Below, in pieces: positions 23,066 to 54,093 of a DNA stretch of 64,000 nt (the first letter of the stretch is position 1; each line of letters starts with the position of its first letter). The notes beneath the pieces are model-generated. The model worked only from the letters and a program-made list of their open reading frames with translations. It had not been told where the DNA came from and ran no database searches. This stretch comes from Vibrio sp. NTOU-M3 (GTDB taxonomy: Bacteria > Pseudomonadota > Gammaproteobacteria > Enterobacterales > Vibrionaceae), in NCBI RefSeq assembly GCF_040869035.1, contig NZ_CP162100.1, positions 1,550,001-1,614,000 on the forward strand, given 5' to 3'. Both the position numbers and the translations under genes were made by a program.

Positions 23066-24073
23066 TTAGTGCATTGGTTTTTTCCAAACAAGATACAAGA
23101 CGAATACGCCGCCCAATGCAGCGGTTACAATGCCAACAGGCAATTCTTGTGGTGCGAGAATAGTGCGGCTTGCAATGTCGCCAACTAACAGCATGACACC
23201 TCCCCATAATGCAACCAGTGGTAATGCGCGTTTATGTGTCATACCCGAAAAAGGTCTCACCAAATGGGGAACCATTAAGCCAATGAACCCAATCACACCG
23301 GTCAGTGCAACAATACAAGCCGTGCAAAATGCACAGCATACAAAAACCTCACTTCTTAAACGATGAATATTAATACCGAGTGATTGGGTAGTTTGTTCAC
23401 TAACTAATAGGGTATCCAACTCTCTGTAGCGTCTTAGACTAAGTATGATGATGCTTAGTAGTCCTATCGCAGCAAAGATCAGGTTCTCCCAACGGGCTAA
23501 ACCTAAGCCTCCCATAGTCCAAAACAAAATAGAACTCGCTGCCCGTTGATCGCCAGAATAGATTAAGAAACTCGTGATCGCACCGAATAGAAAGGATATT
23601 GCTAGTCCACACAGGACGAGGTTGTTGTTCCCGCGTCTTTTTTGAAGCGTAAACAAGGTGAGTACGGAACATGCTGATAAAATACCACCACAAAACGCCG
23701 CTATTGGTAACGACCAAACACCCAAAGCATCTCCCAAATGAGTGATAACTAAAACGGCGCCAACAGAAGCGCCTGACGATAAACCAAATAGAAATGGATC
23801 GGCGAGATCATTACGTGTCGTGGTTTGCAGTAATGCACCTACGGTTGCAAGCCCAGCTCCGGCAATGATAGCGAGCAGTGCTCTGGGGAGGCGTAGTTCA
23901 AGCAGTATGCGACTGGTCATGCTGGCATCTTCTTGGTTAAAGGAGCGTAAACCAGCAAAGACCTCATTTATTGAGATTGAAACTGCGCCACATTTTAAGC
24001 TGAATGCAAATGCAAAAAGTAGGGCACTTATCCCAAGCAACCATGCAAATTGGTATTTCGATAGCTTACTCAA
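23066..24073 (-). CDS. BtuC/FecCD-type ABC importer permease
   Basis: Membrane subunit of 335 residues with about ten hydrophobic helices. ELRLPRALLAIIAGAGLATVGALLQTTTRNDLADPFLFGLSSGASVGAV (about 58-106) and GFIGLMVPHLVRPFSGMTHKRALPLVALWGG are diagnostic of the iron-chelate/cobalamin importer family. It is the last gene of a three-gene unit with the binding protein and ATPase, 3 bases apart. The unit lies between sypO and sypP but has its own Zur-type control, so it is probably unrelated in function to polysaccharide. Confidence 0.9.
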   Translation of the reverse strand: MSKLSKYQFAWLLGISALLFAFAFSLKCGAVSISINEVFAGLRSFNQEDASMTSRILLELRLPRALLAIIAGAGLATVGALLQTTTRNDLADPFLFGLSSGASVGAVLVITHLGDALGVWSLPIAAFCGGILSACSVLTLFTLQKRRGNNNLVLCGLAISFLFGAITSFLIYSGDQRAASSILFWTMGGLGLARWENLIFAAIGLLSIIILSLRRYRELDTLLVSEQTTQSLGINIHRLRSEVFVCCAFCTACIVALTGVIGFIGLMVPHLVRPFSGMTHKRALPLVALWGGVMLLVGDIASRTILAPQELPVGIVTAALGGVFVLYLVWKKPMH

Positions 24074-24076
24074 GCG

Positions 24077-25048
24077 TTATTCTGCCTTTGCACTTACAGG
24101 GAAAAACGCTTTAGAAAGCGTTTCTATTGCATCGATATTGGCAGGCCCGGGCGTAAGCTGCTCATAACGTAGTTTTACGTAATGCTCTGATTTAACTGCC
24201 GTGGTGTGCTTCATCAACGGGTGTTGTTCCAAAAAGGTCTTAAGTGAATCAGCGCCATGTGCCGTTTGATAATCCAATAAAATAATCACATCTGGGTTCT
24301 GCTTTGCCACATGTTCCCATGATGTTCGACCCCAGCTTGTTTCCATATCACCAGTCACATTGATGCCACCTGCTTGACGGATCATGGCATTAGGCATGGC
24401 ATATTTGCCGGCGGTGAAGGGTTTATCTTCACCTGAATCAAATAAGAATACCTTTGGGGCCGGGCTATTCGATTGGCTGTGTTTCGCTTTAATCGCCTGA
24501 ATCCGCGCTTGCCATTCCTGCACTAATGCATTAGCTCTGTCTTGCTTGTCAAAGATCATCCCCAGCTTCTGAATGTCATCGTAAAGCAAAGCCATGCTCG
24601 CCCCATTTTTTAACTTATTAGTATGAATGCAGCTTTCGGAAAGTATCAACGTATCGATGCCATAAGGTTTTAAGCTTTGTGGTGTGACTTCACCACCGAC
24701 TTTCATTCCGTAATTCCAACCAGCAAAGAAGAAATCGGGTTTAGCAGCGATAAGGGTTTCGAGAGATGGGTATTTGGGCGAGAGTTCTGGAATGTCACCC
24801 AAGGTTTTCTTAAATGAAGGAGACATCTTATACCATCCAGAGATCCCACTAACCCCAATCATGTCTTGTTGAAGCTCTAGTGCAAATGCCATCTCCGTCA
24901 TATTGATGTCGTGAAAAACAGCACGTGAAGGACGCTTTTCAATGACCAACGGTGTACCGCAATTGTCGATAGTGATGGGATAAGTCGTACTGGCAGCATT
25001 TGCAGCTGAAAAGGGGATGATAAGGGAGAGCAATACAGTTTTTTTCAT
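24077..25048 (-). CDS. periplasmic metal/metal-chelate binding protein of the ABC importer
   Basis: Class III binding protein of 323 residues. A signal peptide (MKKTVLLSLIIPFSAANA) is followed by the family start TIDNCGTPLVIEKRPSRAVFHDINMTEMAFALELQQDMIGVSG. SLETLIAAKPDFFFAGWNYGM and the TLILSESCIHT segment resemble proteins annotated as iron-, cobalamin- or F420-0-type binding proteins. The ligand is unclear. The Zur box before the operon suggests zinc or a zinc chelate. Its ATG overlaps the end of the ATPase gene. Confidence 0.85.
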   Translation of the reverse strand: MKKTVLLSLIIPFSAANAASTTYPITIDNCGTPLVIEKRPSRAVFHDINMTEMAFALELQQDMIGVSGISGWYKMSPSFKKTLGDIPELSPKYPSLETLIAAKPDFFFAGWNYGMKVGGEVTPQSLKPYGIDTLILSESCIHTNKLKNGASMALLYDDIQKLGMIFDKQDRANALVQEWQARIQAIKAKHSQSNSPAPKVFLFDSGEDKPFTAGKYAMPNAMIRQAGGINVTGDMETSWGRTSWEHVAKQNPDVIILLDYQTAHGADSLKTFLEQHPLMKHTTAVKSEHYVKLRYEQLTPGPANIDAIETLSKAFFPVSAKAE

Positions 25049-25863
25049 TACAAGACTCCTATAGGTGAAAGATTCAGGTGAGAGGGTGCGGCTTCAAAAT
25101 GATGTACCGCTCTGGGTATCTGCGGATGATTAAGTGTGATGACTCGCAGCCCAAACGTCGGCGTGATGAATTGGTCATTCATCACTTGATGTGGTGGAGC
25201 AAAGGTGACCATAGATTGATTGGCCATCAATAGTACTTTGTCTGCAAATGGGGTCACTAAAGGCAAGTCATGCAAAACAACGATCGAAGAAACGCCTTTA
25301 CGCTTGATGAGTGCAAGCAACTCAAACCGCGCTAATGGATCCAGATGGTTGGTTGGCTCGTCAAGAAGCAGTAATTTAGGTTCCTGTGCAAACGCTCTCG
25401 CAATGTTTGCGCGTTGCAGTTCTCCGCCAGATAACACACCTACGCGTTGGTGACTTTTATGTGATAAACCGACATCATTAATCGCTTGTTTTACTGCTCG
25501 GTCATGCTCTTTGGGGCCACAGCAAAAAGTATGGGGGACACGGCCTAATGAAACGTATTCAAATACCGTCAGACGAGGATCAACATGTTCCTGCTGCGCA
25601 ACCAGAGCAATCATTTTGGCCTTTTGGCTTTGCGTCAGATCATCGGTTGGAATGCCATTAAGTTGTAGCTGACCTTGTACTGCGTGATATTCGCCAAGAA
25701 TGGTTTTTAGTAAGCTTGATTTACCACTGCCGTTAGGGCCAATGACGGCAATGCACTCGCCATGAGCCACAGTAAACGTCGTATTATTAATCGCTCTCCA
25801 TTTTAAGGGGCTATCAGCGCATAGTTGATGAGCCGATAAGATAGGGGGTAATGAAGTATCCAT
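25048..25863 (-). CDS. ABC importer ATPase (FepC/BtuD type)
   Basis: ATPase of 271 residues with Walker A GPNGSGKSS (about 42-50), Q-loop ALVAQQEHVDPR, signature LSGGELQRANIARAF, Walker B LLLLDEPTNHLDP and the switch His in VVLHDLP. It is first in the importer operon, directly after a Zur-type palindrome that ends the leader 17 bases before the ATG. Its product would power the FecCD-type permease. Confidence 0.92.
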   Translation of the reverse strand: MDTSLPPILSAHQLCADSPLKWRAINNTTFTVAHGECIAVIGPNGSGKSSLLKTILGEYHAVQGQLQLNGIPTDDLTQSQKAKMIALVAQQEHVDPRLTVFEYVSLGRVPHTFCCGPKEHDRAVKQAINDVGLSHKSHQRVGVLSGGELQRANIARAFAQEPKLLLLDEPTNHLDPLARFELLALIKRKGVSSIVVLHDLPLVTPFADKVLLMANQSMVTFAPPHQVMNDQFITPTFGLRVITLNHPQIPRAVHHFEAAPSHLNLSPIGVL

Positions 25864-39680: not shown

Positions 39681-40475
39681 TTAATTGAGTAAGTTGATAT
39701 TCAATGACCGCACGTCTTGCCAATCGCTATCTGTAGCAGACTCAAACCCTTTGATTTTTAACGTATCAAGGATTGCTTGGTTTTGTTTGGTATCAGCCAG
39801 CTCAGTCAGTGCCTGCTGAACGAGCATCAAAACATCGACGTCCATACGTGGATGAACCGCAATGGCATGCGGTGTATAACCTTCAGTCTGAAAAATAGGC
39901 TTAAGCTGCGAACGTGTTTCTTTATCTAGAGATTTGAATGTGCGGATCACGCCACCTCCTGCTGGGAAAAAGCCTCGCGCAACCGACAAATAAACAGAAT
40001 CATGCGAACTAACATAATTGGGTGTAAAATCGACACCGGCTTTGATGAGATGGTCCCGCGTTAAGATGGATGCGGCAAAGGCGGCCTGAGACGGAAAAGC
40101 AAGGGTAGAATCTTTCAGCTGTTCTAACGATGTTATTCCGCTGTCTTTTCGTACCACGATGATGCCATGAATCTGTTTATCTTTTGCTTTCGCAATTGCT
40201 TTGTAGCCCGGGCTACTACTGAATGTGGTGTAGTGATAGGGGTTCATATAGGCAATGTCGTAACTGCCTAAGCGAAGCTGCTCTTCAAACGTGGGGATGT
40301 CTTTTGCTGTCGAAAAGACAAACTGATGTCCCGTTGCGTTTGAAAGATAATCTGTGATTGGCGTCCATTGCTGTGCAAGGCGGGTAGCGGATTGTTGCGG
40401 AACAACACCAAAGGTAAATGTTTTCCCCATAACATGGGAAGTAAAAGCAATAAGTAATAAGAGAAGCCATTTCAT
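39681..40475 (-). CDS. PhnD-like periplasmic binding protein at the sypE position
   Basis: Periplasmic protein of 264 residues of the phosphate/phosphonate-binding (PhnD/SsuA/TauA) superfamily. A signal peptide (MKWLLLLLIAFTSHVMG) is followed by FTFGVVPQQSATRLAQQWTPITDYLSNATGHQF, typical of PhnD-like proteins, then LRLGSYDIAYMNPYHY. It has no ABC partners. It lies 11 bases after sypD and 32 bases before sypF, where V. fischeri has the response regulator sypE. The likely job is ligand sensing for SypF. The ligand is unknown. Confidence 0.8.
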   Translation of the reverse strand: MKWLLLLLIAFTSHVMGKTFTFGVVPQQSATRLAQQWTPITDYLSNATGHQFVFSTAKDIPTFEEQLRLGSYDIAYMNPYHYTTFSSSPGYKAIAKAKDKQIHGIIVVRKDSGITSLEQLKDSTLAFPSQAAFAASILTRDHLIKAGVDFTPNYVSSHDSVYLSVARGFFPAGGGVIRTFKSLDKETRSQLKPIFQTEGYTPHAIAVHPRMDVDVLMLVQQALTELADTKQNQAILDTLKIKGFESATDSDWQDVRSLNINLLN

Positions 40476-44122: not shown

Positions 44123-44443
44123 TTAGTGTGTTCTGGAGTTCACTGGAATCGCTTGTCCGATCCGCAATAAGTTGATGATTTCTAAAGGCTGACCAGTCAC
44201 ATTTTCTAGTCGCATATTTCTTTCGCGTTCGATCAAGCGCTTGTAGAGATAAACAAGTGCGCCGACACCTGAAGAATCTAAAAACTCAACGTTGCTAAAG
44301 TCGATTTCAATTTCTTGATGGCAATCATTGGCAATGACATCGTCGATATGAGGTTGGGCATCACGGCTACCATCAGCGTCCAAATTTCCATTAATCATTA
44401 AAGTCAGGATGGTGGTGCTTGCTTCGATCTGTTTAAGTTCCAT
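44123..44443 (-). CDS. sypA: STAS-domain protein, SypA-like
   Basis: Cytoplasmic STAS protein of 106 residues like anti-sigma-factor antagonists. Start at ATG 44443 (MELKQIEASTTILTLMINGN), preceded by AGGAG; the longer frame is excluded because the sigma-54 promoter lies inside it. The phospho-acceptor region is VEFLDSSGVGALVYLYK (Ser57/58). In V. fischeri SypA is phosphorylated and dephosphorylated by SypE. No SypE is present here, so this form may be controlled by another Ser kinase or not at all. First gene of the cluster. Confidence 0.9.
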   Translation of the reverse strand: MELKQIEASTTILTLMINGNLDADGSRDAQPHIDDVIANDCHQEIEIDFSNVEFLDSSGVGALVYLYKRLIERERNMRLENVTGQPLEIINLLRIGQAIPVNSRTH

Positions 44444-44473
44444 AGCGCTTCTCCTTTTTGTTTTCTCAAGTAG

Positions 44474-44490
44474 TGCAGGAGCTGTGCCAA
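44474..44490 (-). promoter_or_regulatory. sigma-54 promoter of sypA
   Basis: On the minus strand TTGGCACAGCTCCTGCA has GG-N10-GC and a perfect TGGCAC. The expected start site is about 20 bases before the sypA ATG. Confidence 0.85.
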
Positions 44491-44537
44491 ATGAAAAGTG
44501 ACCGAATAACAAGTGCTTATATGTTCAGTTGTAAGGT

Positions 44538-44574
44538 TTCTCAATTTGAAAGGTGGTTATTCTCAAATTGAGAA
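44538..44574. promoter_or_regulatory. tandem SypG enhancer sites for sypA
   Basis: TTCTCAATTTGAA (44538-44550) and TTCTCAAATTGAGAA (44560-44574) both fit TTCTCA-N3-TG; the second is a palindrome. They are centred about 55-80 bases upstream of the sypA -24 element. The spacing between the two is 22 bases, about two turns of DNA. Confidence 0.75.
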
Positions 44575-44778
44575 TGAATCTGTGAACGTTAATAAGATTG
44601 ACTCATAAATTAGACGCAAAAATGAAGGCGAGTCTTAATCTTAATTGATTGAATTTTATTGCTATTGTTAATGAGATGGTGAGTGTTTAATCAATAAACT
44701 TATAAACAGGGTCTTGTATTATAACTTTCACTGTCACAGTATTTATGTCCTAGACCCGCACACAAGAATTATCTTTAT

Positions 44779-44791
44779 AGAATAATATTCT
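44779..44791. repeat. palindrome in the wecB leader
   Basis: AGAATAATATTCT, a perfect 13-base palindrome, ends 15 bases before the wecB ATG. It may be an operator or only AT-rich chance. Confidence 0.35.
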
Positions 44792-44806
44792 TTAAAAGGA
44801 AAGCTA

Positions 44807-45880
44807 ATGGCTAAAGATGTACTGATTGTTACTGGCACTCGTCCAGAAATTATTAAGATGGCGCCAGTTTATAAAGAGTTTAAAGCTCAAGGGTATTCCA
44901 TTGAATGGTGTCACACTGGTCAACATGACACGTTGGCAGAACAAACATTTGATGTATTTAGTATCACTCCTGACTATGTTTTTTCTCGACCTGAAGGGAA
45001 TGGTTTGACGAATTTGCTGGCTGGTTTGATGAAAAATATTGAATCTGTCATACAAGCCAAGAAGTTTGATTGTGTGTTGGTCCATGGAGATACAAGTTCT
45101 ACATTAGCAGGTGCGCTGACCGCTTTTTACAATCAAGTGCCTTTTATTGGTCATGTAGAAGCAGGGCTGCGTTCGGGCAATATGCAACATCCTTTCCCTG
45201 AAGAATCTAATCGTACCTTGGTCGCTCAAATAGCGAACTTGCACTTCGCGCCTACAAAAGTGGCACGAGATGCATTGTTGCATGAAGGGGTACCACACGA
45301 ACATATTTTGGTTACTGGAAATACCGCAGTTGATGCGCAGCAGTATTTACTTGATAGCGGAAAGATCATCAAACAAGAGACTAACACAGTACTTGTGACT
45401 GCTCATCGTCGCGAGAACTGGGCGTCGATCCCTACGATTTGCTCAGCAATTAAAGCGTTAAGTGCACAGAAACCGGAATTGGAATTTGTACTAGCCACAC
45501 ACCCGAATCCAGTGGTTAAAGAGGCCGTACTATCAAATGTCAAAGATTGTCAAGCGATCAAAGTAGTAGAGCCATTGGACTATATGGAGCTTCAACAAAC
45601 ACTGGCTCAAGCGAGGTTAGTATTGACCGATTCTGGCGGTATTCAGGAGGAAGCTCCAACCTTTGGAACCAAAGTGGTTGTTTTACGTGAAACGACAGAA
45701 CGGCCAGAAGCTGTGAATATGGGGCTATCTCAACTTGCGGGTGCGACGGATGTAAATCGAATTTTAAATTCAGCATTAGCGCTCTTGGATGAAGGGAATG
45801 ATCCTCAAGCCATAAACCCATATGGCGATGGTCAATCTTCAAGCCGAATCGTAGAGCAAATAAAGCTACTACTAAACTAA
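44807..45880 (+). CDS. wecB: UDP-N-acetylglucosamine 2-epimerase
   Basis: Cytoplasmic enzyme of 357 residues that converts UDP-GlcNAc to UDP-ManNAc. GTRPEIIKMAPV near the start, VHGDTSSTLAGALTAFYNQVPFIGHVEAGLRSGN, HPFPEESNR, LVTAHRRENW, TDSGGIQEEAP and LRETTERPEA are the family motifs, with the catalytic Asp, Glu and His. AGGAAAG precedes the ATG. It is divergent from sypA and upstream of nfrB/nfrA on the same strand. No wecC lies nearby, so UDP-ManNAc itself is probably the wanted product, for the NfrB-like transferase. Confidence 0.95.
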   Translation: MAKDVLIVTGTRPEIIKMAPVYKEFKAQGYSIEWCHTGQHDTLAEQTFDVFSITPDYVFSRPEGNGLTNLLAGLMKNIESVIQAKKFDCVLVHGDTSSTLAGALTAFYNQVPFIGHVEAGLRSGNMQHPFPEESNRTLVAQIANLHFAPTKVARDALLHEGVPHEHILVTGNTAVDAQQYLLDSGKIIKQETNTVLVTAHRRENWASIPTICSAIKALSAQKPELEFVLATHPNPVVKEAVLSNVKDCQAIKVVEPLDYMELQQTLAQARLVLTDSGGIQEEAPTFGTKVVVLRETTERPEAVNMGLSQLAGATDVNRILNSALALLDEGNDPQAINPYGDGQSSSRIVEQIKLLLN

Positions 45881-46273
45881 TGTTCTAATGAAATTGGTTT
45901 TTATCATGCTTGATGATGCAGTGTGAGCGGTTATGAATAATGCTGAGATATAGATTGAAATTATAATTTAATTCTAATTTGTGACATAAATACAAAATTA
46001 CTTGTAATTCTTGGGGGTATATCACAGAATGTGACGCTTCTTTAGAAGTGGCTAAACTTACGTTTCATGTAATTAGATCAACGATAGGGTGATTTAACCT
46101 GAGTTTACATGGAAATATGATTGAGTGAAGTAAGTTGACATACCGTTGGGTCAAAAAGATTCAACAGGATGTATTGAAGGCGTTGTCAATATGTAATCAC
46201 TCATACTTATAAGCAATGGATGCTTGGTTTTAGTGCTGTTGTTGGGTGATTAAACTAGACTAGCGGGCAATCA
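45881..46273. promoter_or_regulatory. long leader/regulatory region before nfrB
   Basis: About 393 bases without an ORF. Features: an inverted repeat TCACA-GAA-TGTGA at 46022-46034, a small CTTCT/AGAAG hairpin just after it, and sigma-70-like pieces TTGACA at 46136 and TTGTCA-N18-TTATAA near 46190. No sigma-54 site was found. Its length suggests control separate from wecB. Confidence 0.45.
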
Positions 46274-48481
46274 ATGAGCGTTTTCGATATATTTGTTGTT
46301 TACTTATTTGGCTTAAAGTATGTGCTGTTTGTCATCATGGTTGCATTAGCTATTTGCGGCCTTGATGACCTCATTATCGATATTTACTATTGGTGTAGAC
46401 GGTTTTGGCGAAGAAATACGGTTTATAAAAAATACGACCGTAAACAAGCGGCAGACCTATATGGTAAAACAGAGCAACCGTTAGCGATCATGGTTCCTGC
46501 TTGGCAAGAGCATGGTGTTATCGGCAAAATGGCTGAGCTGGCTGCTTCTCGTCTTGATTACGAAAACTATCAAGTCTTCGTCGGTACCTATCCAAATGAT
46601 CCTGAAACCCAAGCCGATGTAGAAAAAGTTTGTGCAAGGTATCCCAACGTCCATAAAGTGGTTTGCGCACGTCCAGGGCCAACGAGCAAAGCGGATTGTT
46701 TAAATAACATCATTGCTTCTATTATCGAGTTTGAGAAAAAAGCGAAGGTCGAATTTTCCGGCTTTATTCTCCACGACTCCGAAGATGTTCTTTCGTCAAT
46801 GGAGCTACGTTTATTCAACTACTTACTTCCTGCCAAAGATCTGATCCAACTTCCAGTTTATCCATATACCAGAAAATGGTATCAAATGACGCCAGCACAC
46901 TATGCTGACGAGTTTGCCGAGTTGCATGGTAAAGATGTTGTTGTACGTGAAGCGATAGCAGGTCAAGTTCCCAGCGCAGGCGTGGGTACCTGTTTCAGCC
47001 GCCGCGCCGTTTTGCGCCTTCTGGTTGAAGGTGATGGCCTTCCATTTGATGTGCAATCCTTGACAGAAGATTACGATATTGGTTTTCGCTTGAAACAATG
47101 GGGAATGAACGAAATATTCGTTCGTTTTCCTGTTATCGATAAAGAACAAATAACGCTGAAAGAGGAAGCGCTAGGTGTCTCTTTGCGTGAAGGTAGCGTG
47201 GTTTGCGTAAGAGAATATTTCCCAACAACATACTCAACAGCAGTAAGACAGAAAAGCCGCTGGATCATTGGTATCGTGTTTCAGGGAATGAAGAACCACA
47301 AGTGGACCAAAGACTGGAAAGTGAACTATTTCTTGTGGCGAGACCGTCGTGGACTTATTAATAACACGGTTGGCTTTATTGCAATGCTGTTGCTGATCCA
47401 ACTGGTTGCATTGTCTTTATATAGCTTGTTTGTGGAAGACAGCTATCGTTTTATGTCAATAATCTCAGAAGACCCAACAACTAAGGCTCTGTTAACGCTT
47501 AATTTTTTCTTGCTAATGAACCGACTGACGCAACGGTTTTATTTTGTCAGCCAATATTATGGTTACTTGGAAGGAGCGTTATCGATTCTTCGTCTCTTCT
47601 GGGGCAACATTATTAACTTTTCCGCTAACCTGCGTGCTCTTCGTCAAGTCATTCAACAAGGTGATCCTCGTCGGGTTGCATGGGATAAAACCACTCACGA
47701 CTTTCCTTCAGTATCCACAGAGGGACGAAAGAAACCATTGGGCCAAATTCTAGTGGAGAAGGGATGGATAGATGAAAAAACATTGAATGATGCTGTGATT
47801 AACTGTCCTAAATATTGGCTCCTTGGTATGCACTTAGTCACATCTGGACATATTACTAACGAGCAATTAAGCCGTGCGATAGCCAACCAATGTGATGCGG
47901 AATTTTTAGCAAGTGATCCGTTTTCATTGGATGGTCATACCGTTAGTCTTCTGCCAAAGAAACTGGCTTTGAAATATTCAGTGCTTCCTATTGCAATGGA
48001 AGGTGAAACACTGGTGTTAGGCAAAGAATCCGCGCTTAGCCCGGTGGCTCATGCAGCAATCAAAAGACGCATCAAATGCCCTGTAAAGTGGGTGATCACA
48101 ACCAACGGTGCGGTGACATTAGGTCTACGCTATTGGTATTTAGATCGAAAGCTGCTCAATCCCAAAATAGCATTGAAAGCGGAGTTTGAGCGTAATGTTT
48201 TTTCTCCTGAGCAGTGGGACAGATTATACGACCACTATTTTGCTAGCCAATCACAACTTGGTTCTTGTTTATTGTCAGCACGCTTAATTGAACCCGCTGT
48301 GTTGAATCAGGCTATTTTGGCATTTGAAACAGAGGATGACGTAAGTTTAGGGCAATTTCTGGTTGAAAGAGGATATGTAACTAGCGACGCCTTAGAACAA
48401 GCATTGATGTTACAAAAACAGCAACAAATGCCATTGGAACAACTTGTAGAAACATGCATCAAACAACCGGAATTGAATTAA
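46274..48481 (+). CDS. nfrB: NfrB-like inner-membrane glycosyltransferase with MshEN c-di-GMP-type motifs
   Basis: Membrane GT2 of 735 residues. A first helix is at about 7-30. The catalytic domain has AIMVPAWQEHGVIGKM (about 71-86), the acidic HDSED (167-171), LTED (263-266) and QKSRW (326-330). Helices lie at about 362-388 and 405-450. The C-terminus has T2SSE-N/MshEN segments: KPLGQILVEKGWIDEKTL with LLGMHLVTSGHITNEQL (about 487-531), and a second pair QLGSCLLSARLIEPAVL with SLGQFLVERGYVTSDAL. E. coli NfrB, from memory, is activated by c-di-GMP and builds a ManNAc glycan. The neighbouring wecB fits that. Confidence 0.88.
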   Translation: MSVFDIFVVYLFGLKYVLFVIMVALAICGLDDLIIDIYYWCRRFWRRNTVYKKYDRKQAADLYGKTEQPLAIMVPAWQEHGVIGKMAELAASRLDYENYQVFVGTYPNDPETQADVEKVCARYPNVHKVVCARPGPTSKADCLNNIIASIIEFEKKAKVEFSGFILHDSEDVLSSMELRLFNYLLPAKDLIQLPVYPYTRKWYQMTPAHYADEFAELHGKDVVVREAIAGQVPSAGVGTCFSRRAVLRLLVEGDGLPFDVQSLTEDYDIGFRLKQWGMNEIFVRFPVIDKEQITLKEEALGVSLREGSVVCVREYFPTTYSTAVRQKSRWIIGIVFQGMKNHKWTKDWKVNYFLWRDRRGLINNTVGFIAMLLLIQLVALSLYSLFVEDSYRFMSIISEDPTTKALLTLNFFLLMNRLTQRFYFVSQYYGYLEGALSILRLFWGNIINFSANLRALRQVIQQGDPRRVAWDKTTHDFPSVSTEGRKKPLGQILVEKGWIDEKTLNDAVINCPKYWLLGMHLVTSGHITNEQLSRAIANQCDAEFLASDPFSLDGHTVSLLPKKLALKYSVLPIAMEGETLVLGKESALSPVAHAAIKRRIKCPVKWVITTNGAVTLGLRYWYLDRKLLNPKIALKAEFERNVFSPEQWDRLYDHYFASQSQLGSCLLSARLIEPAVLNQAILAFETEDDVSLGQFLVERGYVTSDALEQALMLQKQQQMPLEQLVETCIKQPELN

Positions 48482-48482
48482 C

Positions 48483-51400
48483 ATGAACACACGAGCCAAA
48501 TATTTGCTTGCTCTGCTTATGATCCATCCGGTGATGGACGTTCATGCAGCGACACCGAATGATATTTATGCTGATTTATCCGACTTCCAACACTTTCGTG
48601 TCTACCCCTATGTCGATAAAGCGTTTGAGCGTGAGCAAAATAAACAATATCTCCAAGCATTAGATGAAATTGATCAGGCGATGGCCATTGTGCCTGATCA
48701 TGTTCCTTTCATTAAATACGCTTACACGCTGAGTTTGCTTGCGAACAAGCCCAATAGTGAACTTGAAGCACTGTTAAAACAGATCCCCGCGTCTGAACGT
48801 GGTGATCTTTTACTCGAACTTCGTCAAAAAGAATCTCAAGCTGGGGAACTGTATAGTCCTCATGAAGTGAGCATCCTGACCAAAGGAATGACTGAAAAAC
48901 AAATTAAACGTTGGTTTATGAATCACGTTTATACGATTGAACGTGTCAAAGGGAAAGGGGATGCATTGCAATGGAGTATCTCTCAGCCGATACGTTATAA
49001 ATCAATCGACGCTTTACGCTTCGAAGCTTACGCGTCATACGAGAGTAAGCAGTTCCCACAAGCGATTTCCATACTGGAAGGTTTTAGAGCGAAGCAGTTA
49101 GAGACAGAGCAAGATTTGCGCTTCTTATCTTATATGTACTTGGAGCTTGGCCAATACGGTAAGGCACTTGCTCTAACTAAAGACAAGCAAGGTGAAGCAC
49201 TCTATGAAGACGTTCAAACGGCTTACATTAGTCACTTAATCTATGAAAATAAGTTAGTTACTGCGAAGTCAGCCCTTGAAGAACTGGCCAAGCGTTCAGA
49301 ACTTAATTCAGAGCAACAACATACATTCGATTACCTCAATAGTTTTAATGCGCTTCAGCTAAGCAGATTAGAAAAAGAGCGAATGGTCATGAACGACTGC
49401 TTGAAAGAGGTGATCACGTTGGCTGATTCAGGTAAGCGCGAGCTGGCAGTCAAACAATTTTCCTCATGCAATCCTAATTTAAACTCATCGTCATGGTTAA
49501 TCATGGCTGAATCGTTAGGCGCATATCGAAATTTGCAAGCGGCTCGATTTAAAACACCGCGCCTTGAGAGTCAGCGTAGACAAATTCTAGCTAATCACTA
49601 TAAAGCAAAGGGTAATTGGCAAGGTGTGAGTGAACTGTTTGCCGAGCCTACGAACACTGCTCAAAGGCTTGAGCTTGCGAATGCCTATCGTCATCTAGGG
49701 GATGATTTTAATGCATCTAAGGCTTATTTTGATGTTTATCGTCATACAAAGAAAATCAAATACTTAGATCGTTCTACGTATCTGCTGCAACAAGCAATAG
49801 TTGATGAAGAGAAGCAAGCATCAGAATTGGCAGAGCAATTGAATGTTGGTATGCACAATACGCCACAACGTTTTTTTGCAAATAAACAGCTGCTCAACCG
49901 CGTAGCAGAGGCTGTATTGCAAAGGCCAGAGCTATTTCAACCGAACGACATTGCTCGACTCAATATGCATTTGGCTAAGAAAGCACAAATCAACGCTGCC
50001 ATTTGGCAACAAGCGGATGCATGTAACGTACTGGAAAAACACTTTGCGACTGACGCATTCAGCCGAAAAGCTGAAGCACATTGCTATGGAGAGAGTAGTC
50101 CATTAGTTGCGGCATCAATGTACGAACAGGCTGTAGCAGATCAGGAAAGCATATCAAATGCCGAGCACTTGCAACTGGCAACATGGTATGCACAAGGGCA
50201 GCAACACACTAAAGCACAATCTCATTGGCAAATGGCAGATAATTTAAGCAGTTACGACCACTACTTATATGCTGATTCTCTTTATCAATCGGGTCAGTAT
50301 CAAGAAGCCAATCAAGTATGGCAAGACGCAGGAATTAATTCTGATAACGCGCAATGGTGGCTATTGGGCGTTAAAATTGCTGAACAGTTAGATAATTCGG
50401 AACTTCTAAGTAACCGGTATCAACGTGCTTTGGCGCAGTCACAATCCGGTGAGATCGCGGCAGAAGTTGCAAACTATTACCTAGAAACTGAACCAACTCA
50501 GCTGCCAACTTATGTAAATGATGTTATTAAGAGTGATAACAGCGGCCATATCAGTGCTCAGTTGGGTTATCTATTATCACATTCTCATCCAACGCTGGCG
50601 GTACAACTTTTAGAAAAAGCCCATGAGTTTCCAGCTTATCGTGATGACGTGAATCTTATGAGTGAATACGCGCGTTTATCAGCAGATAATGGTCAGCGAG
50701 TTAAAGCGTTAACATTATATGAAGCCGGTATTGATGAACTTAACGCAAGACCCGAAACCGAAAAAGATATCGCGCAAAAACACTACCTGCAACGTGCTCA
50801 TCGAGATGTTGAGCAGGGGTGGCAGTTTGCTATTTCAGGTTGGGCTGGTGACAGTTCAGGAAGAGTCGCTCCTGGCTACACAGGTCAAACAGGTAACTAC
50901 TTTGTCATGGAAGAAGCAAAATATTATTTTGATCAACCATGGGTTCCAGGATTAGCTTTTTCTGCGACGGCGCTGCATAGCGGCTTGTTGGAGCAAGACC
51001 AGTCATGGTTTAACAGCCAAGTGGATATTGGTTTGCAGCTTCAACCAATCAAGAATTGGAGTTACTACCTTAAGGCTGGTGTTGTACAAGACGTATGGAA
51101 TGACAACCGTGATCTTGATACAAGGGGATATGTCCGCTTTAGCGCCGATGTTTTTTCTAAAGATGACTGGAGTAAAGCTTGGCAAGCTGATCGAGACATG
51201 TGGTTGTATCATGCAGCATATGTCGATGCGACTAAATATCTTGATGAAGAGAAAGACTACTTTCTCTTCGCCCGTTACAATCTCGGTGAGACTTTTAAAG
51301 TATCTGAAAATCACCGCCAGCGTGTCACCCCATATGGCTTTGGTCAATGGAGCTCGATTAAGAATACCGATTCACCGGATAAAGACAAACGGTTGGGATT

Positions 51401-51554
51401 AGGGGTCTCTTGGACTTGGGAATGGTTTAATAGTGCGTACGATGGGTACTCAGTCGTATCGGAAGTGGGGTTAGAGTGGCAACATATCAACGAAAGCAAT
51501 ACGTTAGAAGGGCATGGCGACTCCTATCTTCTTCGTTTCTCATCTTCATTTTAA
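48483..51554 (+). CDS. nfrA: NfrA-like outer-membrane TPR/porin protein
   Basis: Product of 1023 residues, one base after nfrB. A signal peptide (MNTRAKYLLALLMIHPVMDVHA) is followed by a long TPR-type helical region (about 30-770), with repeats such as QALDEIDQAMAIVPDHVPFIKYAYTLS and RKAEAHCYGESSPLVAASMYEQAV. The last 240 residues form the NfrA C-terminal domain, with alternating strands (RFSADVFSKDDW, YFLFARYNLGETF, YSVVSEVGLEWQHI) ending in Phe, as beta-barrels do. In E. coli NfrA is the N4 phage receptor. Here it is likely the outer-membrane exporter of the glycan. Confidence 0.9.
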   Translation: MNTRAKYLLALLMIHPVMDVHAATPNDIYADLSDFQHFRVYPYVDKAFEREQNKQYLQALDEIDQAMAIVPDHVPFIKYAYTLSLLANKPNSELEALLKQIPASERGDLLLELRQKESQAGELYSPHEVSILTKGMTEKQIKRWFMNHVYTIERVKGKGDALQWSISQPIRYKSIDALRFEAYASYESKQFPQAISILEGFRAKQLETEQDLRFLSYMYLELGQYGKALALTKDKQGEALYEDVQTAYISHLIYENKLVTAKSALEELAKRSELNSEQQHTFDYLNSFNALQLSRLEKERMVMNDCLKEVITLADSGKRELAVKQFSSCNPNLNSSSWLIMAESLGAYRNLQAARFKTPRLESQRRQILANHYKAKGNWQGVSELFAEPTNTAQRLELANAYRHLGDDFNASKAYFDVYRHTKKIKYLDRSTYLLQQAIVDEEKQASELAEQLNVGMHNTPQRFFANKQLLNRVAEAVLQRPELFQPNDIARLNMHLAKKAQINAAIWQQADACNVLEKHFATDAFSRKAEAHCYGESSPLVAASMYEQAVADQESISNAEHLQLATWYAQGQQHTKAQSHWQMADNLSSYDHYLYADSLYQSGQYQEANQVWQDAGINSDNAQWWLLGVKIAEQLDNSELLSNRYQRALAQSQSGEIAAEVANYYLETEPTQLPTYVNDVIKSDNSGHISAQLGYLLSHSHPTLAVQLLEKAHEFPAYRDDVNLMSEYARLSADNGQRVKALTLYEAGIDELNARPETEKDIAQKHYLQRAHRDVEQGWQFAISGWAGDSSGRVAPGYTGQTGNYFVMEEAKYYFDQPWVPGLAFSATALHSGLLEQDQSWFNSQVDIGLQLQPIKNWSYYLKAGVVQDVWNDNRDLDTRGYVRFSADVFSKDDWSKAWQADRDMWLYHAAYVDATKYLDEEKDYFLFARYNLGETFKVSENHRQRVTPYGFGQWSSIKNTDSPDKDKRLGLGVSWTWEWFNSAYDGYSVVSEVGLEWQHINESNTLEGHGDSYLLRFSSSF

Positions 51555-52387
51555 GTGGATGTAATCAGCACTCGGAAAGCCCTTCTGGGGCTTTCTACCA
51601 GCCTTTAAATCAAGATAAAACGCTAAAACAACAAGACTGGTTCTCTATCGCAAAAACAATGGAGCGCTACGAACTCAGTCAGGTTGTGGTCCAATGGACC
51701 CAATATGGCGATGAAACTTTCGGCGGTCCATCCGGTTGGTTAGCTCTAAATCTAGAAACATTGGTCGACAATGATATCCAGTTATGGCTTGGGCTATATT
51801 CCGACCCAAATTATTTTAAGCGGATCCACGCTAATGTTGAGCAGCAAAAGCAATACTTAACACGTTATTTTGAAGAATTAGAAAAGAGTTACCAACGTTG
51901 GAAGCCTTGGATTGAGCAGCATCAGCCTAAAATTAACGGCTTATACCTACCACTTGAACTGAGTGACTATGACTTTGTCACGCAGCAGCAACGTGACTTA
52001 ATTACTAATGTATTGGCGCAGCAAGTAAAAAAATACCCGATGCCTTTGATGGTCACGCTTTACCTTGCCGCCAATAACGACCCTGATGTCATTCGCAAGT
52101 GGACTAAAGAAATAAGGCAAGCAGGAATTACTCTATACGTTCAAGATGGTGCCGGAACGCAAAGCTTGAGTGGTGAGCAGCGACGCAATTACTTAAATTC
52201 ACTGTCATGCGAAACTGGGTTGGTTAGGGAAGTTTTTGTGCAAGAGCAGCAATCAAGTCAGTTTGTAGCCAAGAAGATGAATAAGCAGGCGTTTCTTAAA
52301 CTTGTTACCCAGCGAAGCTGTCACAGTAGTATACTGTTCTCCCTTCGGTATTTCCCCGATAACAATCCACTTAAGTTAGTCAAATAA
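51476..52387 (+). CDS. DUF4434-like lipoprotein nested at the nfrA end
   Basis: Product of 303 residues, start GTG 51476, which lies 79 bases inside nfrA. No ATG exists that would keep the signal peptide. The signal MATYQRKQYVRRAWRLLSSS plus FLIFILSGC gives a lipobox at SGC. The rest looks like a TIM-barrel glycosidase-like DUF4434 domain, with QVVVQWTQYGDETFGG and INGLYLPLELSDYDF. In E. coli ybcH follows nfrA; this gene is in the same place. A role in trimming or binding the glycan is inferred from context. Confidence 0.7.
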   Translation: MATYQRKQYVRRAWRLLSSSFLIFILSGCNQHSESPSGAFYQPLNQDKTLKQQDWFSIAKTMERYELSQVVVQWTQYGDETFGGPSGWLALNLETLVDNDIQLWLGLYSDPNYFKRIHANVEQQKQYLTRYFEELEKSYQRWKPWIEQHQPKINGLYLPLELSDYDFVTQQQRDLITNVLAQQVKKYPMPLMVTLYLAANNDPDVIRKWTKEIRQAGITLYVQDGAGTQSLSGEQRRNYLNSLSCETGLVREVFVQEQQSSQFVAKKMNKQAFLKLVTQRSCHSSILFSLRYFPDNNPLKLVK

Positions 52388-53241: not shown

Positions 53242-54093
53242 ATGCAGTTACGTCTTTCTCTTATCGCAGCCAGTATGATGGCTGCAAGTGTTACTCAAGC
53301 ACATTCACCTCACGATGATTTACTCCCTCCGTTTATTGCTAAAGCAAAAACGTATCAAGAGGGAGTGGCCGTCACCGAATATTGGAAAAGTGAAAAACTG
53401 GACGGTATTCGTGCAATATGGACGGGATCTCAACTCGTCACGCGCGGCGGTAAACCCATCATGGCACCAAAATGGTTTGTCGAACCCTTACCACAGCATC
53501 CCCTAGAAGGGGAGCTATGGGCTGGCCGCGGTAACTTTCACTTAGTGCAACAAACCGTACTAGATCAAAAACCGGTGGATGCTTCTTGGAAGAAAATTGA
53601 TTTCATGCTGTTTGATATGCCCGGCGCTGCGGGAGACTATCAAAAACGCTACTACAACTTGATCCACTTTGTGAGTAAAGCGGATTCTGACCATATCAAG
53701 TACATTGAACACACGCCGATCGTTTCAGAAAAAGAACTCTTTTCCCATTTAGATAGTGTTGATGGTGCAAAAGGAGAAGAGTTGATATTAAGAAAGATCA
53801 CGAGCCGATATCAAGCGGGGAGAAGTAGTGATCTATTAAAACTAAAGAAACATCAGGATGCGGAAGCGACGGTGATTGGGCATAAAGTCGGTATGGGTAA
53901 ATACAAAGGAATGATGGGGGCATTGTTAGTAAGGTTGGACTCTGGCCTTGAGTTTTACATTGGCAGTGGTTTTACTGATATTCAAAGGCAAAACCCACCA
54001 CCATTGGGGAGTACTATCACCTTTCGATACAATGGATACACTCAAAATGGCATACCAAAATTTGCTCGTTATCTACGAGAACGGCCGGAATAA
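53242..54093 (+). CDS. exported ATP-dependent DNA ligase
   Basis: Minimal ATP-dependent DNA ligase of 283 residues. A signal peptide (MQLRLSLIAASMMAASVTQA) sends it to the periplasm. The adenylation motif is SEKLDGIRAIW, with the nucleophilic Lys at about residue 51. LEGELWAGRG, DFMLFDMP, GEELILRKITSRYQAG and LLKLKKHQDAEATVIGH are motifs III, IIIa, IV and V. The OB-fold domain follows. From memory the V. cholerae homologue VC1542 is an active ligase. Why it is exported is unclear; a role with DNA uptake is a guess. Confidence 0.92.
   Translation: MQLRLSLIAASMMAASVTQAHSPHDDLLPPFIAKAKTYQEGVAVTEYWKSEKLDGIRAIWTGSQLVTRGGKPIMAPKWFVEPLPQHPLEGELWAGRGNFHLVQQTVLDQKPVDASWKKIDFMLFDMPGAAGDYQKRYYNLIHFVSKADSDHIKYIEHTPIVSEKELFSHLDSVDGAKGEELILRKITSRYQAGRSSDLLKLKKHQDAEATVIGHKVGMGKYKGMMGALLVRLDSGLEFYIGSGFTDIQRQNPPPLGSTITFRYNGYTQNGIPKFARYLRERPE

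Follow-up and report, generated by a model that had tools for sequence, protein, structure and literature searches.

Among the exopolysaccharide machines that depend on WecB and the Nfr proteins, NGR of E. coli is the reference: Junkermeier and Hengge describe an nfrBA-ybcH operon and report that organisms without any other wecB have one directly beside nfrB (PMC8669469), and Sellner et al. saw wecB grouped with the nfrA and nfrB genes in Achromobacter (PMC8669472). The linkage of wecB to nfr genes is already published, and the arrangement is not new. Here we describe such a locus in Vibrio sp. NTOU-M3, at positions 44807-52387 of a 64,000-nucleotide (nt) stretch of contig NZ_CP162100.1 (the window). 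We read it, with a probability of about 0.8, as the Vibrionaceae version of the Nfr/NGR exopolysaccharide machine with the full mechanism proposed below; that it encodes an Nfr/NGR-type machine as such is, judged by its gene families, a still safer statement. Four open reading frames (ORFs) on the plus strand exactly span the locus, and their family matches agree with the order wecB-nfrB-nfrA-lipoprotein given in the original prediction:

44807-45880, plus strand: wecB, 357 aa, non-hydrolysing uridine diphosphate-N-acetylglucosamine (UDP-GlcNAc) 2-epimerase, putative supplier of UDP-N-acetylmannosamine (UDP-ManNAc); TIGR00236, sole match in the genome
45881-46273, no strand: wecB-nfrB gap, 393 bp, possibly with a separate promoter for nfrBA-ybcH
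46274-48481, plus strand: nfrB, 735 aa, membrane synthase of glycosyltransferase family 2 (GT2) with a C-terminal MshEN region
48483-51554, plus strand: nfrA, 1023 aa, periplasmic repeats and outer-membrane barrel, putative export pore
51476-52387, plus strand: ybcH equivalent (DUF4434), 303 aa, lipoprotein with the predicted fold of a TIM barrel, laid out like a glycoside hydrolase

WecB scores 366 bits against TIGR00236 (cut-off 210). NfrB is above the cut-offs of NF012033 (625 bits, cut-off 537), Pfam MshEN (33.3 bits, cut-off 23.1) and NF053729 (71 bits, cut-off 38), is also matched by Pfam GT2, and carries the GT2 signatures DxD, TED and QxxRW at residues 168, 264 and 326. Residues 841-1005 of NfrA match Pfam NfrA_C (54 bits, cut-off 25), and the fourth protein matches Pfam DUF4434 (65 bits, cut-off 30). 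From these genes we infer the biochemistry of the window system as a whole. WecB would convert UDP-GlcNAc into UDP-ManNAc, which the inner-membrane synthase NfrB would polymerise when cyclic di-GMP (c-di-GMP) binds to its C-terminal region, the sensor there presumably being made up of an alpha/beta domain flanked by two MshEN_N-like units. The glycan chain would then pass the periplasmic repeats of NfrA and leave through its outer-membrane barrel, and while still in the periplasm it is probably cut or trimmed by YbcH, the DUF4434 lipoprotein. BcsZ in cellulose synthesis and the hydrolase domain of PgaB in poly-N-acetylglucosamine synthesis offer analogies for such trimming.

Some observations weigh against this reading. 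The models at the level of equivalogs are not reached: NfrB stays just below NF008411 (1081 bits over nearly its whole length, cut-off 1170), NfrA has only 105 bits against NF007302 (cut-off 1223), and the fourth protein has 203 bits against NF007404 (cut-off 344), a model named PRK09936 that we equate with E. coli YbcH. Exact functional equivalence is therefore not given, and the three proteins appear as homologues in the same order rather than as proven equivalogs. As to a dedicated diguanylate cyclase such as DgcJ, GGDEF domains are matched 52 times in the genome and not once in the window, so that the locus is without a signal source of its own. Of the self-contained NGR-like system claimed in the original prediction, what stands is a gene set of the Nfr/NGR type that includes a supplier of UDP-ManNAc, while the self-sufficiency ends at the signal. 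As for the ManNAc-based receptor glycan of phage N4 that the prediction described for E. coli, WecB is needed there, but the use of UDP-ManNAc and the ManNAc polymer are inferences from genetics even in that organism (PMC8669469, PMC8669472).

The supply of UDP-ManNAc appears to be dedicated. A genome-wide search finds one copy of WecB, and across 227 Vibrio genomes NfrB is matched at E 1e-60 in 12, eight times at full length and four times as a short form. WecB with 54-100% identity occurs in exactly the eight genomes with full-length NfrB, while all other WecB rows lie at or below 45%, the distance on which a stray O-antigen wecB was dismissed as an explanation. Three of the eight genomes (G055, G176 and G179) have a second, distant WecB, and the private epimerase is thus kept even alongside another WecB. 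That a private epimerase follows NfrB through the Vibrio genomes speaks for UDP-ManNAc as the substrate of NfrB, and WecB quite probably serves chiefly the Nfr machine. G147, also one of the eight, carries an in-frame TAG in nfrB, and a cut nfr contig hides the linkage to wecB there. L108 and L010 have an nfrB with an in-frame TAG, on a 3.6-kb contig separate from wecB, and the nfr system may be decaying there.

The distribution also bears on another explanation, in which the machine is of the Nfr type but its chain is not, or not only, made of ManNAc, and the neighbouring wecB works chiefly for a different glycan, for example via a transferase of the WecG/TagA family. One gene of this family is indeed present elsewhere in the genome (C1:3098752), its product could also take a ManNAc-type donor, which counts against a dedicated supply, and the 393-bp gap would permit a separate regulation of wecB; the purely genetic basis of UDP-ManNAc use in E. 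coli (PMC8669469, PMC8669472) fits this explanation as well. It does not explain, however, why the WecB sub-clade tracks full-length NfrB in 8/8 Vibrio genomes and is retained in G055, G176 and G179 despite the other WecB. The search with family models also found no UDP-ManNAc dehydrogenase in the genome; the only nucleotide-sugar dehydrogenase above cut-off scores far higher as a UDP-glucose dehydrogenase (728 bits) than as a UDP-ManNAc dehydrogenase (76 bits). A chain not, or not only, of ManNAc with a wecB working mainly for another glycan is improbable, and a WecB dedicated to NfrB remains the preferred reading.

The linkage was followed through 79 NfrB loci that were chosen by similarity to the window NfrB, and thus are not a random sample, and that were grouped by record titles. 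In 43 of the 79, nfrB is preceded by a wecB in the same orientation, namely in 10/11 loci of Vibrionaceae (not visible in one), 3/29 of Enterobacterales and 30/39 of the others, where the remaining nine have wecB downstream on the opposite strand (four), show none (three) or leave it not visible (two). In 41 of the 43 linked loci the two genes overlap or are spaced by at most 45 nt, as far as lengths from mechanical start codons tell, in which negative values are overestimates; the other two have 134 (L013) and 2463 nt (L082). The gap of the window is atypical in this respect, as just one of the 43 exceeds its 393 bp, and this also speaks against the locus as a standard unit: with such a gap, nfrBA-ybcH may be transcribed apart from wecB. 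A promoter and terminator scan of 44400-46400 gave six promoter-like sites versus 6.0 expected and no terminator versus 1.2 expected, and searching the gap with the consensus sequences of sigma-54, SypG, FliA and CRP sites gave none better than in shuffles, which preserve base content only. The RNA fold of the gap has a z of -1.63, with 6/100 shuffles equally good, and the gap sequence has no further copy in the genome; in the fetched loci its best match, at E 0.013, is not convincing. In Photobacterium sp. GB-56 (L014:1381-16055), two complete wecB-nfrB-nfrA-ybcH sets stand head to tail on one contig.

The C-terminal region of NfrB, in which the original prediction had seen two pairs of MshEN-like motifs, can be divided as follows:

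47735-47890, plus strand: first MshEN_N unit, residues 488-539, two 24-residue motifs (motif counts, model)
47900-48145, plus strand: alpha/beta part of the MshEN domain, residues 543-624 (Pfam MshEN, model)
48254-48415, plus strand: second MshEN_N-like unit, residues 661-714 (motifs, profile comparison, model)

Both pairs were found again, with motifs that start near residues 488, 516, 661 and 691 and a pattern that is kept in 73, 73, 36 and 74 of the 78 rows of the family alignment, versus at most 1/78 at 343 other offsets. These rows are the window NfrB and 77 NfrB ORFs of more than 650 aa from 76 of the 79 loci, the split copies of L010, L046 and L054 being left out. In a profile comparison, the second unit matches the first with a probability of 98.4% (E 9.8e-15), the intervening domain scoring 2.7% (E 0.017), and a model of the first unit matches the tails of 46/47 NfrB homologues versus 3/940 shuffles (alignments A1 and A2 have 47 rows and A3 has 39, all picked from the 79 loci). 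Chance motifs as the source of the second pair were rejected on the offset control and the profile comparison. According to motifs, profile and predicted model, the second unit consists of tandem 24-residue motifs that form a four-helix unit, which in the model is the helical MshEN_N part without an alpha/beta part of its own; the first part of the model has a fold match to MshE with c-di-GMP. By homology, the second MshEN_N-like unit is real and present throughout the family; in Enterobacterales, one of its motifs shows partial decay. A search of open-access article texts found no report of it.

It is an even question whether the second unit binds or relays c-di-GMP, and a structural relic without nucleotide binding, with the first unit as the only sensor, has the same probability. 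The glycine of its first motif is present in only 32 of the 78 sequences, with alanine in 41, and in E. coli changes in the first unit alone abolish or reduce N4 infection (PMC8669469/PMC8669472), both of which would suit a relic. Yet the second motif is kept as well as those of the first unit (74/78 rows with 6 of 7 key positions), and the window NfrB retains the glycine in both motifs of the second unit. The E. coli NfrB construct that binds c-di-GMP with a dissociation constant of 1 µM spans both units (PMC8669469/PMC8669472), which also counts against a relic. Two more findings speak against a functional sensor in this place: the second unit lacks the motif arginine and has one of the two glutamines (in the second motif only), although ligand contacts of MshEN involve an arginine at the start and a glutamine at the end of each motif (PMC5013675), and the stretch of the model that covers this unit gives no fold match beyond the ordinary. 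The first unit, however, departs from the motif in the same way (no arginine, one glutamine). The strong c-di-GMP control that the original prediction derived from the motifs is therefore an expectation for the window NfrB, with a second unit that departs from the published motif. Should this unit bind c-di-GMP, then the published mutations, all in the first unit, probed half of the sensor. NfrB relatives of 473-476 aa, which end where the MshEN region would start, are found in four of the 227 Vibrio genomes (L111-L114), with an NfrA-like gene after them and a distant WecB elsewhere in the genome, and they are a natural comparison for c-di-GMP-independent synthesis.

The fourth gene had been labelled a lipoprotein, correctly so, as its product has the lipobox LSGC with Cys29; missed were its equivalence to YbcH and its likely glycoside hydrolase fold. 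The lipobox is present in six of the eight Vibrionaceae rows of A3, the 39-row YbcH alignment (L005 and L013 are without it). The predicted model is an eight-stranded TIM barrel (pLDDT 94.7), in which two glutamates stand out:

51956-51958, plus strand: codon of E161, near the end of strand 4, 39/39 rows
52229-52231, plus strand: codon of E252, at the end of strand 7, 38/39 rows

Both residues stay while the identity of the rows to the window YbcH drops to 18-46%, and they sit where clan-A glycoside hydrolases have their catalytic glutamates, at the ends of barrel strands 4 and 7. The fold matches include GH164 beta-mannosidase, GH42, GH5 and the putative fucosidase BT_0435 (4h41), and a family not listed among the matches is not thereby excluded. 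Going by the model, the chances that YbcH is an active glycoside hydrolase are about equal to those that it is not, and it may trim the glycan rather than serve as a scaffold. What tells against hydrolysis is that these fold matches share only 6-13% identity with YbcH, that a profile search against PDB sequences found no relative at E 1 or better, and that in E. coli N4 can infect without YbcH, which has been proposed as a periplasmic scaffold (PMC8669469/PMC8669472). The last two of these facts, together with the absence of any activity on record, would suit a non-catalytic protein that binds and guides the glycan on a hydrolase-like barrel, a somewhat less probable alternative; against it stand the two nearly invariant glutamates, placed as for clan-A catalysis, in proteins of such low identity. 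A search of open-access article texts found no report of a hydrolase role for YbcH. If YbcH is an NGR-specific hydrolase, it would be a reagent for the identification of the glycan, and a gene without a role would have one; several phage groups use NGR as their receptor.

Rather unlikely, taken jointly, is the combination in which complete Nfr operons would bring along a glycan-cutting enzyme of their own, with YbcH/DUF4434 as a new clan-A-type hydrolase family that acts on the N4-receptor glycan, as a lipoprotein in much of Vibrionaceae, and the two MshEN units would gate NfrB in a two-step response to c-di-GMP, with the glycines of both units intact in Vibrionaceae and the second unit partly decayed in Enterobacterales.

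With mechanical starts, the end of nfrA and the beginning of the ybcH equivalent share 79 nt (51476-51554), and the same overlap recurs in L004-L009, L011, L012 and L014 and is not found in L013 or most other loci. A recent import was rejected on base composition, as the four genes have 42.6-43.4% G+C and their surroundings 42.6-44.0%. Rfam and tRNA searches of the window gave no match.

wecB is divergent from a neighbouring biofilm cluster of the syp type, which extends to about 19910 and contains genes for STAS, OmpA, SLBB export, a kinase, a sigma-54 regulator, transferases, flippase, Wzy, Wzz and a sugar transferase; syp is a biofilm polysaccharide locus in several Vibrio species (PMC4517449). 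Three features belong to this side:

44123-44512, minus strand: sypA-like STAS gene, first gene of the syp-type cluster and a neighbour outside the system; the mechanical start is probably too far upstream
44474-44490, minus strand: sigma-54-like -24/-12 site facing sypA, two mismatches, 1/200 shuffles as good
44538-44574: SypG-like sites

A sigma-54 site facing wecB with at most four mismatches was not found, and a shared sigma-54/SypG control of wecB was rejected, as the single site points at sypA. SypB is present in 57 of 80 Vibrio genomes, versus NfrB in few. In a comparison that looked for an empty site with the flanking nitroreductase, this gene occurs in 19 of 80 Vibrio genomes; outside the own genome, the closest nitroreductase-SypB pair is 18 kb apart (G157), and the rest are at least 57 kb apart or on different contigs. 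SypA-SypD have no match in 23 nfr loci, of which only eight of Vibrionaceae (L004-L008, L011-L013) come with flanks of about 10 kb left and right, and the position of nfr beside syp may thus be peculiar to the window. The syp-type cluster also includes, at 23066-25863 (minus strand), a FecCD-type permease, a periplasmic binding protein and an ATP-binding cassette (ABC) ATPase, placed between the Wzz-like gene and the last transferases. At 39681-40475 (minus strand), the genes of the SypD-like ATPase and the hybrid kinase enclose one for a periplasmic binding protein of the phosphonate type, roughly at the place of sypE in V. fischeri. V. vulnificus and V. parahaemolyticus reportedly lack sypE (PMC4517449). 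An ATP-dependent DNA ligase with an apparent N-terminal signal peptide (NF006592, 355 bits) is encoded at 53242-54093 (plus strand).

Not found in the published descriptions cited are the second MshEN unit of NfrB, YbcH as a predicted hydrolase and the unusual 393-bp wecB-nfrB gap; also worth keeping are the way in which WecB exactly tracks NfrB in Vibrio and the relatives of NfrB that have no MshEN region. With E. coli NGR, in which wecB is also named nfrC, the locus shares the order of nfrB, nfrA and ybcH, the GT motifs, MshEN, the NfrA barrel, DUF4434 and the need for WecB. It differs in that wecB is adjacent to nfrB and not, as in E. coli, part of the operon for enterobacterial common antigen, in an NfrB identity of 50-54%, in the lipobox of YbcH and both motif glycines of the second MshEN unit, and in the wecB-nfrB gap, the syp neighbour and the lack of a FliA-like site above shuffles. 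Like in the wecB-linked nfr clusters of Pseudomonas soli and Achromobacter xylosoxidans (PMC8669469, PMC8669472) and in the fetched loci of Vibrio, Photobacterium, Aeromonas, Dyella and others, wecB lies beside nfrB-nfrA, but compared with other wecB-linked clusters the window has no acetyltransferase, BcsB or GGDEF gene (GGDEF tags in the fetched loci being motif matches) and a wider wecB-nfrB gap. Unlike the MshEN domains of MshE and PilF (GSPII), that of NfrB is fused to a glycosyltransferase, and its second unit has no alpha/beta part, while YbcH, at 6-13% identity to clan-A hydrolases (GH164, GH42, GH5) and BT_0435 (4h41), differs from these in being encoded in an exopolysaccharide operon.

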